Source of the DNA: Fibrobacter succinogenes
GTDB taxonomy: Bacteria > Fibrobacterota > Fibrobacteria > Fibrobacterales > Fibrobacteraceae
Direction of reading: 5' to 3'
Assembly (NCBI GenBank): GCA_902761355.1
Contig: CACWJY010000003.1
Coordinates: forward strand, 62,001-126,000
Length of the DNA: 64,000 nucleotides
In this document: piece by piece, positions 13,526 through 48,389 of the stretch
How the letters are laid out: every line of letters starts with the position of its first letter
Numbering within the stretch: position 1 is the first letter of the stretch
Notes under the pieces: model-generated
The model's database searches: none
The model's input: the letters and a program-made list of their open reading frames with translations, nothing else
Told to the model about the DNA's origin: nothing
Translations under genes and position numbers: made by a program

Positions 13526-13545
13526 ACCCCATCAAAGCGAGCACC

Positions 13546-13748
13546 GATAGAGCCGAACGATCTTTGTGAGCGGCAAGCGACTTGTATTAACGAGTCGTGG
13601 ACGCGAGAGTGAGGCGATATCACATTGCCATAGTGCGATAGAGCCGAACGGTCTTTGTGAGCGGCAAGCGACTCGTATTAACGAGTCGTAGACGCGAGAG
13701 TGAGGCGATATCACATTGCCATGGTGCGATAGAGCCGAACGGTCTTTA
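13546..13748. repeat. 91-bp tandem repeat, two full copies plus a 21-bp partial third
   Basis: Copies begin at 13,546, 13,637 and 13,728 (exact 91-bp period). The two full copies differ at 4 positions. Each holds a perfect or near-perfect hairpin, CGACTCGT-ATTA-ACGAGTCG in copy 2. In copy 1 the C-to-T change keeps a G-U pair, hinting that RNA structure matters. 91 is not a multiple of 3, so a coding role is unlikely. It fills the gap between the transporter gene and its terminator. Confidence 0.9.
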
Positions 13749-45110: not shown

Positions 45111-45521
45111 GTGAAGCATTTCATCAAGTACAATATCATTGGCGTCATGAACACGCTCATCACCCTGGCGTCGGTCTGGGTGATGCACCAGTTGCTTGAC
45201 TGGAACCTGGAACTTTCCAATTTTCTCGGTTTCATCTTTGGTGCCATCAACAGCTACCTGATGAACCGCATCTGGAATTTCAAGAGCAAAAACCGCAAGC
45301 GCAGCGAAGTCATCCGATTTATCATCGTATTCGTCGCCGCTTACGCCTTAAACCTCATCACCCTCGAAGCAACAGTCTACTTGCTCAACACCACCTGGTG
45401 CAAGCCGTTCACCGATGTCATCTCACAGTACATGAAACCCGGCTTCTTCGCAAACATCGTCGCGAATGCCGTCTACGTAGTCGCAAGCTTTACCCTCTAC
45501 AAAAAGTGGGTGTTTAAATAA
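45111..45521 (+). CDS. GtrA-family membrane protein
   Basis: A 136-residue protein with four predicted transmembrane helices, matching the GtrA/DPMS family thought to assist transfer of polyprenyl-linked sugars across the membrane in O-antigen, arabinogalactan or teichoic-acid glycosylation. Seen: FIKYNIIGVMNTLITLASVWV, LSNFLGFIFGAINSYLMNRIWNFKS and the C-terminal NAVYVVASFTLYKKWVF. The start is GTG 45,111; the only nearby ATG (45,109) is in a frame closed at once by TGA. A TATCTT box lies about 8 bp before it, so it may be leaderless. There is no glycosyltransferase next to it. Confidence 0.82.
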   Translation: MKHFIKYNIIGVMNTLITLASVWVMHQLLDWNLELSNFLGFIFGAINSYLMNRIWNFKSKNRKRSEVIRFIIVFVAAYALNLITLEATVYLLNTTWCKPFTDVISQYMKPGFFANIVANAVYVVASFTLYKKWVFK

Positions 45522-45643
45522 TTCGATAATTTTTTGACAAAACGAAATGTATCATTCAGAGTTATACAACTCTTGGGACTTTAATCCCTTAGTCACGTTA
45601 GGTTCTAAGAAACAGAATCTATTATTACGAGTTTTCATAGTTT

Positions 45644-45687
45644 AGATCCTTCGACTTCGGGCTTCGCCCTTCGCTCAGGATGACACC
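45644..45687. repeat. Imperfect inverted repeat GATCCTTCGACTTCGGG...CTTCGCTCAGGATGAC
   Basis: The arms ATCCT/AGGAT and an inner GGGC-TTC-GCCC hairpin flank CTTCG motifs. Similar AGATCCTTCG...TCAGGATGAC sequences occur as dispersed intergenic repeats in several bacterial genomes (recollection, not checked here). It sits at the start of the 420-bp gap after the GtrA gene. Confidence 0.5.
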
Positions 45688-45702
45688 TCTTTACATGGCG
45701 TA

Positions 45703-45822
45703 AAAGATGTGTTCGCTAAGCGAACAATCCGCAGCCGAAGGCGACCTTTGGTCACTTGGCCTTTAGGCCTTAGTGAATATGGCCACCTTTAGGTGGTGAC
45801 GTGAGCGTGCAAACACATCTTT
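45703..45822. ncRNA. Candidate multibranched structured RNA or hairpin-rich repeat
   Basis: A perfect 11-bp closing stem AAAGATGTGTT (45,703-45,713)/AACACATCTTT (45,812-45,822) encloses several hairpins: GTTCGC-TAA-GCGAAC (45,711-45,725, competing with the end of the closing stem), GACC-TTTG-GTC, GGCC-TTTA-GGCC and CCACC-TTTA-GGTGG. No coding frame explains it. Strand is unknown. It may be a transcribed RNA, the end of a transcript, or a mobile palindromic repeat. The rest of the gap 45,522-45,941 holds a terminator and nothing else recognised. Confidence 0.5.
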
Positions 45823-45875
45823 GAAGCCAACAGTAGCTTATTTAAAAAATCACGCAATCCGTTATTCGCATATAC

Positions 45876-45918
45876 AAAAAGGACTCGCAAAGCGAGTCCT
45901 TTTTTGCAGCAAAGCTGC
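45876..45918. terminator. Bidirectional intrinsic terminator plus mini-hairpin
   Basis: AAAAAGGACTCGC-AAA-GCGAGTCCTTTTTT (45,876-45,905) is a perfect stem with A and T runs on both sides. It ends the OmpA gene (minus strand) and anything transcribed rightwards. A second small hairpin GCAGC-AAA-GCTGC follows at 45,906-45,918. Confidence 0.85.
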
Positions 45919-45941
45919 ATACTCTTTTTCAAGAATTCCGA

Positions 45942-48389
45942 TTAGAACGGTACGAGTTCTACGCGGCGGTTCTTGGAGCGGCCCTTCTTCGTCTTGTTAT
46001 CGGCGATAGGCTTGTCAGAGCCAAAGCCCACAGCGCGAACACGGTCAGAAGAAATGCCGTTCTGAATGAAGTAATCCACCACTGCCTGGGCACGATCATG
46101 AGAGATCTGCTTGTTGGTTTCTTCGGAGCCCGTATTGTCGGTATGACCCTGGACTTCGATATTGGCGGTACTGAACTTCTTCATGAGTTTCACGATGTTG
46201 TTCAAGGTCTTGTAACTTGCCTTGGTGAGCTTCTTGGAGCCACTCTGGAAGTTAATACCCTTCTTCAACTGTTCGAGGTCTTCAGCCTTGTTGAGCGGGC
46301 AACCCTTCTTGTCGATACGCACGCCTTCGAGGGTGTTCGGGCACTTATCGAGGAAGTCTGCCACGCCGTCCTTATCGCTATCGACCGGGCAGCCAACGGT
46401 GTCAACGGCAGCACCCTTCGGAGTATCCGGGCACTTGTCGAGACCATCGTACACGCCATCCTTGTCTGCGTCAGCAGCGCAACCCACAGAGTCAACAGGA
46501 ACACCCTGCAGAGTATTCGGGCACTGGTCAATACCATCAGGTACGCCGTCCTTGTCGAAGTCGAGCGGGCAACCCGTATTGTCAACATTCAAACCGGCCT
46601 TAGTATCCGGGCACTTGTCGAGAGCATCAGGTACGCCATCCTTATCGGCATCAGCCGGGCAACCCGTAGAGTCAACAGGAATTCCCTGCTTGGTATTCGG
46701 GCACTGGTCAACAGCATCCGGAATTCCGTCACCGTCAAAGTCACCTTCACAACCTTCGGCATTCACCTGAGCACCTTCGCGGGTATTCGGGCACTTATCC
46801 ATTGCATCGGGCACACCGTCCTTGTCAGCATCAGCCGGGCAACCGAGGGAATCAACCGGGAGACCTGCCGGAGTGTTCGGGCACTTATCAAGATAGTCGG
46901 GCACGCTGTCCTTGTCGGCATCAGCCGGGCAACCCGTAGTATCAACCTGAAGGCCAGCAGGCGTATTTTCGCACTTGTCGAGACCATCATAGACACCATC
47001 CTTGTCCGTATCCATCGGGCAGCCGAGAGAATCAACCTTCACGCCAGCAACAGTGTTCGGGCACTTGTCGAGCACATCAGGTACACCATCCTTGTCAAAG
47101 TCAGGTTCGCAACCGAGAGAGTCAACCGGAGCACCTTCGCGAGAAGTCGGGCACTTGTCGAGACCATCAAGAATGCCATCCTTATCCGTATCCATCGGGC
47201 AGCCAACGGTATCAATCGTTGCGCCTTCCGGAGTATCGGCACACTGGTCAAGGCCATCAATCATGCCATCCTTGTCGGAGTCGATCGGGCAACCCACGGA
47301 GTCAACCGTAGCAACATCCGGAGTATGCAAGCACTGGTCTTCGCTATCCGGTACGCCGTCGCCATCTTCGTCACTCTTGGCATTGCCACCAAAGCGCCAG
47401 TTAAGGGCAGCTGTCACAGCAACAGTCGGGGTCGGAGCATAGCCGTAGCTAACCGGACCTGTCGAATTGTCATGATGAATCATATGGGTTTCAACGCTCT
47501 TCATTTCGTCCTTAGCGTCGTAACCGAGGTTAGCAAGGGTACGCATTGCAATGTCTGCACCCAAGGCGAAGTCGATATTCCACGGCAGGTGGAAACGAAC
47601 ACCCGGAGTCAGGAGCATCGGGTCGTCCATCGGGTCACGACGGTAGACACCGTCTTCGACACGCATTTCGCCGGTGAATTCCACAAAGACATCCATCCAG
47701 CTGGTCGGCATCACGTTCACGCCGGTACCGTAAACAAGGGTATTGGTTCCAGCGCCAGCATAAACAAAGCCAGCGTAGGTGTTCCACAGGACTGGCACAC
47801 CAAGTGCACCGAAGTTCAAGGAGAATACCATGGTTCCAGCAAAGTTAAACTCATTAGAGGTATAGGGATTAGTTCTACCAGCCTTGTCGCTCAAGTACCA
47901 GGCATGACGGGGACGAACGCCCACGGCTTCGTCGCCAGTCGGGAAGTAGATATCACCCTGGATAGCGAGGCCAAAGAAGCTCTTGGCATCACCAACGACG
48001 CCAAACTTCAACCACACATCGAGGTCGCCACGGCTAGCGGTCCAGAGGTCACCCTCGCCCTTGCCCTTCAAGTTGGCATGGTCATAGTACAGCGGGAGAG
48101 CCATACCGAGGTCCAAGAAATTCAACAGACCAATCGCAGCATGCACATTACCCGAAAGGGTTCCTGCATTGCTATGGAAAGAGCGTGCTTGGTTGCCCTG
48201 ATAAATCATGCCACCACGGGACTGAGACCAGGAGTCTGTCGACACATCGCCGCCAGTTCCAACTTCAATACCCCATTGTCCTAGCGTGTAAGCATTATGT
48301 TGATGTATACCGGAAGTTCCGCCCTGAAGCCCGGACTGGGCAAAGGCAAGGCCTCCAGCGACCAGTGATAACGCAATGATTTTTTTCAT
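45942..48389 (-). CDS. OmpA-family outer-membrane protein with 12 thrombospondin type 3 repeats
   Basis: An 815-residue protein: signal peptide (ending FAQ-SG), an N-terminal beta-barrel-like region (residues about 20-335; GQWGIEVGTGGDVSTDSWS, alternating strands), 12 tandem 30-residue repeats (about 340-699) of the form D-x-D-x-DGVPD-x-x-D-x-CPNT...GCP, each with calcium-type Asp ladders and one disulfide pair, and a C-terminal OmpA peptidoglycan-binding domain (INFQSGSKKLT, VQGHTDNTGSEETN, LSxxRA-like ISHDRAQAVVDYF, NRRVEL). It probably links outer membrane and peptidoglycan through a Ca2+-stiffened rod. ATG 48,389 is preceded by GAGGG. Frames on the opposite strand within the repeats are shadows. 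Confidence 0.9.
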   Translation of the reverse strand: MKKIIALSLVAGGLAFAQSGLQGGTSGIHQHNAYTLGQWGIEVGTGGDVSTDSWSQSRGGMIYQGNQARSFHSNAGTLSGNVHAAIGLLNFLDLGMALPLYYDHANLKGKGEGDLWTASRGDLDVWLKFGVVGDAKSFFGLAIQGDIYFPTGDEAVGVRPRHAWYLSDKAGRTNPYTSNEFNFAGTMVFSLNFGALGVPVLWNTYAGFVYAGAGTNTLVYGTGVNVMPTSWMDVFVEFTGEMRVEDGVYRRDPMDDPMLLTPGVRFHLPWNIDFALGADIAMRTLANLGYDAKDEMKSVETHMIHHDNSTGPVSYGYAPTPTVAVTAALNWRFGGNAKSDEDGDGVPDSEDQCLHTPDVATVDSVGCPIDSDKDGMIDGLDQCADTPEGATIDTVGCPMDTDKDGILDGLDKCPTSREGAPVDSLGCEPDFDKDGVPDVLDKCPNTVAGVKVDSLGCPMDTDKDGVYDGLDKCENTPAGLQVDTTGCPADADKDSVPDYLDKCPNTPAGLPVDSLGCPADADKDGVPDAMDKCPNTREGAQVNAEGCEGDFDGDGIPDAVDQCPNTKQGIPVDSTGCPADADKDGVPDALDKCPDTKAGLNVDNTGCPLDFDKDGVPDGIDQCPNTLQGVPVDSVGCAADADKDGVYDGLDKCPDTPKGAAVDTVGCPVDSDKDGVADFLDKCPNTLEGVRIDKKGCPLNKAEDLEQLKKGINFQSGSKKLTKASYKTLNNIVKLMKKFSTANIEVQGHTDNTGSEETNKQISHDRAQAVVDYFIQNGISSDRVRAVGFGSDKPIADNKTKKGRSKNRRVELVPF
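46293..47372 (-). repeat. Twelve tandem 90-bp repeats (thrombospondin type 3, 30 aa each)
   Basis: The period is 90 bp throughout, so the frame is preserved and the repeats span exactly 1,080 bp. Each unit has six conserved Asp at calcium-ligand spacing and two Cys (in DxCPxT and GCP). Units differ moderately, so the array is not recent. Unit 7 is the most divergent (NAEGCEG). Confidence 0.9.

Follow-up and report, generated by a model that had tools for sequence, protein, structure and literature searches.

The hairpin-rich segment at positions 45644-45829 of the window (the whole 64,000-nucleotide stretch of Fibrobacter succinogenes DNA analysed here) is a REP-like palindrome lying beside a nest, in which a core is located inside an older palindromic repeat, which in turn is located inside a variable outer stem. 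The core, a central module of 52 nt, is a double-hairpin element of non-coding DNA that belongs to the Fibrobacter lineage. The segment as a whole is probably a nest of mobile palindromic repeats, in which the core nests in others, the composites spread, and cores move or are homogenised between hosts, all at the DNA level. The first-pass annotation described one multibranched element, which we replace with several modules nested in each other; one of its three suggestions, a REP-like mobile repeat, is supported, since the segment, far from being unique and unconserved, is multi-copy, dispersed, present or absent at orthologous sites, and formed by stems that covary. Bacteria commonly carry short palindromic repeats, but the mechanism of their spread has been established only for few of them. 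In this case the clean empty and filled sites, the three levels of nesting and the identical cores in unrelated hosts, in a set of 80 genomes, make the mechanism of spread (transposition, template switching or conversion) directly testable. Among the titles of the literature on Fibrobacter palindromic or intergenic repeats no description of the element was found, and in two REP surveys whose text was searched Fibrobacter is not mentioned.

Architecture of the locus

The flanking ORFs are separated by a gene-free gap of 420 bp (45522-45941), as originally annotated. On the left it is bordered by a gtrA-like gene (45111-45521, PF04138) and on the right by a convergent OmpA-family gene that ends at 45942. 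Within the gene of the OmpA-family protein, 90-bp tandem repeats (46362-47326) encode ordinary thrombospondin type 3 repeats. Between the convergent genes, outside the repeat, there is also a terminator-like hairpin AAAAAGGACTCGC-AAA-GCGAGTCCTTTTT (45876-45904), a perfect 13-bp inverted repeat, and a comparable hairpin is present in orthologous gaps that lack the repeat.

The perfect 11-bp closing stem of the earlier description could be confirmed: AAAGATGTGTT (45703-45713) is the exact reverse complement of AACACATCTTT (45812-45822), from which it is separated by 98 nt. According to the inverted-repeat analysis, they constitute the middle of a longer pair of 21-nt arms (inverted repeat I1, 45696-45716 and 45809-45829) with 86% complementarity, which forms the outer stem. 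The inverted repeat ATCCTTCG..AGGATGAC noticed directly upstream was located at 45644-45686, and this REP-like palindrome (AGATCCTTCGAC..CTCAGGATGACAC) is a separate dispersed repeat that adjoins the nest; at E < 1e-3 the own genome contains six more copies of it. Inside the outer stem we find the two halves of host repeat type 1 on the plus strand, the left one at 45713-45744 (TCGCTAAGCGAACAATCCGCAGCCGAAGGCGA) and the right one at 45797-45811 (TGACGTGAGCGTGCA), both of which are found in several genomes, and within several outer stems, in the presence as well as in the absence of the core. Between them lies the core (45745-45796, plus strand, where the strand denotes the orientation of the covariance model and not of a transcript), matched by the model in the window with 61.3 bits and an E-value of 2.2e-13. 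It comprises hairpin 1 (45745-45782, CCTTTGGTCACTT-GGCC-TTTA-GGCC-TTAGTGAATATGG) and hairpin 2 (45783-45796, CCACC-TTTA-GGTGG).

The architecture had been judged unlikely to arise by chance, and indeed the segment folds better than its dinucleotide shuffles on both strands (z of -3.0 and -4.8). The core taken as DNA also folds better than shuffles on either strand, and because both strands do so, folding does not indicate which of them acts. An Rfam scan of the window returned no match for the hairpin cluster, its sole match being a tRNA located elsewhere.

The core module and covariation of its stems

Alignment of copies defines the core as a unit of 50-55 nt with two adjacent hairpins, CCTTTGRNCACTTRG[stem]TTAnGTGN'R'CATGG followed by CCACCTTTAGGTGG, and with the ends CCTTTG..GGTGG. 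The variable pair N/N' of hairpin 1 is of the Watson-Crick type in all 54 parsable distinct cores, compared with a mean of 17.6 and a maximum of 29 in permutations, and all four pair orientations are seen. The apical stem appears in different versions (GGCC, AGCGC, AGCAC, AGTGC, GGCAAC, GGAAC and others), nearly all of which are self-complementary. In an alignment of 23 sequences 98.4% of cells are paired, vs 20-47% when the structure is slid along it, and 22 cells are double-changed, vs 6.1 in shuffles, albeit these counts come from related rows and do not represent independent events. Of the hairpins named in the first-pass annotation, both with a TTTA loop (GGCC-TTTA-GGCC and CCACC-TTTA-GGTGG) are supported by covariation, while GACC-TTT-GGTC is not: most copies break it (GACCTTTGGAC, GACCTTTGACC), and its bases are part of a larger structure, the 5' arm of hairpin 1. 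The invariance of hairpin 2 among the loci collected with an exact 19-mer (see below) has to be discounted, because they were fetched by the exact hairpin-2 pattern; the copies found by the covariance model vary, and variants from relatives keep the pairing (CCCC-TTTT-GGGG, CCCCC..GGGGG).

In a palindrome with many copies, even strong covariation does not by itself prove a functional RNA. Template switching is a documented source of compensatory changes in RNA genes, and it can create or repair perfect stems and yield multi-base compensatory changes (PMC8794818). It is therefore possible, though we regard it as distinctly less likely than mobility, that no transposition is involved at all, and that template switching at hairpins during replication, together with gene conversion between the repeats, makes the nests and keeps them palindromic, in which case the covariation would reflect the mechanism of mutation instead of selection or mobility. 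Mildly against correction of the arms alone stands a purine-purine mismatch R/R' in hairpin 1, which has been kept and not corrected in 37 of the 41 distinct cores in which both bases are available. This mismatch, adjacent to the variable pair, is G.A in 27 distinct cores and A.G in 10, and the switch from one to the other is a case of non-Watson-Crick covariation.

Copy number and taxonomic range

The copy-number check by BLAST that had been proposed earlier yielded 25 pieces in the own genome, which fall into separate modules, as the regions of about 45644-45689, 45714-45744 and 45741-45796 recur independently. The pattern CCACCTNAAGGTGG of hairpin 2 occurs there 14 times exactly, with no occurrences of the reversed control, and the covariance model, likewise suggested at the outset and now built, finds 15 core copies. 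In the genus it detects about 725 copies (725 in all) in 79 of the 80 genomes, mostly metagenome assemblies, with 1-35 copies per genome. An exact 19-mer of the core was found in at least 117 stretches from named genomes, and all the matches listed are Fibrobacter. Outside the genus, one to five copies are present in five genomes of two sister genera from the same family, and the model found none in other families of a 121-genome sample of the phylum.

The core is palindromic and intergenic, which would also suit an attachment site of a phage or an integrative element, another of the initial suggestions. However, a single genome can have as many as 35 copies, they are nested in other repeats and carry no cargo, and in the viral scan only two contigs contained the exact 19-mer, both without the rest of the core, hence we find this explanation unsupported and extremely improbable.

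Nesting in host repeats and insertion sites

Among 168 distinct core copies with flanks, nearly all fall in about seven other types of dispersed repeats (the hosts were sorted according to simple patterns in the flanks, which left 10 of the 168 cores unassigned or doubtful), and in each host family the core occupies one or few positions. Host A is a 91-bp tandem repeat, host C is GTCATTCCCGG..CCGGGAATC, and host 1, present in the window, is CGCTAAGCGAAC..GAGCGTGCG. The window also contains, at 13545-13747, 2.2 copies of host A without the core, ending with GAGCCGAACGGTCTTT; elsewhere in the genus this host often holds the core after GCGA. Host A with the core forms tandem arrays in two cases (L275 of genome G070 and L276 of genome G038), each with three identical cores, spaced by about 150 nt in G070 and by 123 and 219 nt in G038.

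Empty and filled versions of the host repeats can be directly compared at the level of single bases. The filled site GGTTGCGA[CCTTTGG..AGGTGG]GAGTGAGG at L181 corresponds to the empty GGTTGCGAGAGTGAGG, the filled GGTGGCGA[GCTTTGG..AGGTGG]GAGCGAGG at L067 to the empty GGTGGCGAGAGCGAGG, and for host C the comparison is that of L165 against L156. Apart from a single ambiguous base, these pairs contain no target-site duplication. Hosts 1, B, D and E show a different base right of the junction, frequently T in place of G, thus insertion, a movement that we infer from sequence comparison, may not be uniformly exact across hosts, or the sites may have changed since. The tetranucleotides at the left junction also vary (GCGA 82, GGGC 20, GCGG 14, AATA 9, and others).

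A third level of nesting is formed by a module of about 50 nt, TATACGACTCTTAGTGCTTTAGCACTTAGTGGAGTTAT..CCCTTTGGG, located in the apical loop of hairpin 1 in some cores. Its carriers are L004, L011, L014, L022, L081, L106, L107, L114 and L148, and outside any core it was seen once, in L067.

The orthologous gap and probable passage of cores between hosts

The gtrA region was located in 39 of 41 genomes. Most species with a displayed gtrA/ompA gap lack the repeat and keep the terminator-like hairpin (e.g. G005 and G010). In G032 the gap contains host 1 without the core, enclosed by the outer stem AAAGATTGGTTTGC..GCAAACCAATCTTT, and in the window it contains host 1 with the core, enclosed by an outer stem that differs from that of G032, yet is still paired. 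These three states of the gap (empty, host only, host with core) fit a stepwise build-up. As the repeat is missing from most of the displayed orthologous gaps, the element is dispensable at this locus. Some gtrA/ompA gaps carry other repeats, e.g. a REP-like palindrome in L206.

Identical cores are found in two to four different, unrelated host families. The cores sampled from genomes G045, G058, G062 and G078 are 100% identical within each genome, whereas their 40-nt flanks exhibit only 64-71% identity on the left and 70-92% on the right. Complete identity of cores within a genome and few founder positions per host family are what conversion would produce, in line with the scenario without transposition introduced above. 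Conversion, however, requires homology, and identical cores reside in unrelated host families, which implies that a first insertion per host family would be still required. Whether cores insert afresh or are copied from host to host by conversion, an initial jump into each host family would be needed. On the other hand, the small number of positions per host speaks against the mobile nest that we prefer, as it also fits founder insertions followed by conversion and spread of the composites. The probabilities that we assign to the competing explanations overlap, because spread by conversion and rare insertion can act together.

Gene context

With a simple ORF picker, 91 of 117 copies were assigned to a gap between two ORFs: 25 in convergent, 49 in tandem and 17 in divergent gaps, the background gaps being 47 convergent, 148 tandem and 79 divergent. 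The excess of convergent gaps is mild (25/91 vs 47/274, p = 0.05), and together with the strong covariation it could be taken as a sign of a structured RNA, as had been proposed for the segment, in the form of a 3' UTR stabilizer, an attenuator or a small RNA with its fold under selection. Yet in tandem gaps the orientation is random (26 same, 23 opposite), which does not favour a strand-specific RNA role, most of the orthologous gaps shown lack the element and retain the terminator-like hairpin, the core is nested in many unrelated hosts, and it has no match in Rfam. The proposal of a gene-linked RNA regulator is accordingly dropped, and a selected RNA structure of any of these kinds seems quite unlikely.

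The ORFs that overlap the core are mostly spurious-looking frames or gene ends. The sole real-looking in-frame insertion is that in L139, where an 860-aa ORF resembling TonB-dependent receptors contains the core near residue 161.

Search for a mobilizer and the proposed mechanism

In the 80 genomes of the genus, Y1 transposases are present in 27, reverse transcriptases (RVT_1) in 18 and IS110 in 6, and no transposase linked to the core was found among these three families. The own genome, which is about 90% complete, yielded no member of any of the three. The core copy number does not differ between genomes with and without Y1 or reverse transcriptase genes (p 0.23-0.92), and near-complete genomes with 10-22 core copies contain neither. 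This negative result counts against our preferred explanation and for spread without transposition.

It bears also on the possibility of a REP/RAYT-type repeat mobilized by a Y1 (HUH) transposase that acts in trans. IS200/IS605 elements use a single-stranded Y1 mechanism that acts on hairpin DNA and generates no duplication, and the hairpins and the missing duplication of the core would agree with it, as would the Y1 genes in a third or so of the genus genomes listed above. Y1 was, however, not found in 25 of the 40 near-complete genus genomes, including ones with 10-22 core copies, nor in the own genome; the copy number shows no difference in relation to it (p 0.62 for all genomes, 0.92 for near-complete ones), and the junction is not preceded by any single tetranucleotide or marked by a GTAG tag. 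Mobilization by Y1 is therefore improbable in our view.

The mobile nest that we favour would operate as follows. The core would enter other dispersed palindromic repeats, almost always inside them and without clear target-site duplication, and could accept another hairpin module in its own loop; the nested composites would then spread as new repeat families, and cores would pass between host families, or be homogenized by recombination, independently of the host. Single-stranded DNA hairpins may be the substrate, and the spread would proceed at the DNA level, either by a putative trans-acting enzyme or by template switching and gene conversion, probably without serving any function for the genes nearby. 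More speculatively, the cores might represent ultra-short (50-55 nt) bacterial double-hairpin parasites that recognize hairpin repeats, insert without duplication, stack three deep and are moved by a putative hairpin-reading enzyme, a chromosomal parallel to the mitochondrial double-hairpin elements; we consider this possible, but less likely than not.

Comparison with known palindromic elements

Mitochondrial GC clusters, or double-hairpin elements (such as GC42 of yeast), merge and shuffle, and their mobilizer is not established; AG or ACT repeats lie on either side of them (PMC4478555). The core is similar to them in being non-coding, tens of nucleotides long, hairpin-forming, multi-copy, present or absent at orthologous sites and capable of merging: it has two adjacent hairpins in 50-55 nt, shows presence and absence, and merges with palindromes. 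It differs by its bacterial chromosomal setting, the lack of a clear target-site duplication and its palindromic-repeat hosts, and the likeness drawn here is one of behaviour. Among the systems compared, the GC clusters are the closest in this respect, and we suggest that the core works like them without filing it as a member, on account of the bacterial setting, the lack of a clear duplication and the preference for palindromic targets.

Some insertion sequences target REPs (PMC1525189), and they share with the core the use of palindromic repeats as targets, but what is inserted in Fibrobacter is a non-coding pair of hairpins, 50-55 nt long and with no transposase. A classical MITE, which would have terminal inverted repeats, a target-site duplication and a related transposase, was considered and rejected, as there is no clear duplication and the search of three families gave no transposase linked to the core.

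GTAG and CGTC REPs (PMC3733652) are, like the core, short dispersed intergenic palindromes; the core, however, has no GTAG or CGTC tag, contains two hairpins and resides inside other repeats. A RAYT-linked GTAG REP was rejected, as the core does not end in GTAG and the own genome yielded no Y1 gene of the RAYT kind. A CGTC REP has a CGTC tag, a stem starting with AT, a loop of 4-5 nt and a CCA tail. The repeat at 45644-45686 and host C, which is GTCATTCC..GGAATC, may bear some likeness to this type: by eye, they start with GTCAT and AT is present, while 45644-45686 has TGTC rather than CGTC, and the loop and tail differ.

Finally, the in-frame core in the TonB-receptor-like ORF of L139 is reminiscent of Rickettsia palindromic elements, which are small palindromic inserts; unlike them, nearly all cores are intergenic, within other repeats.
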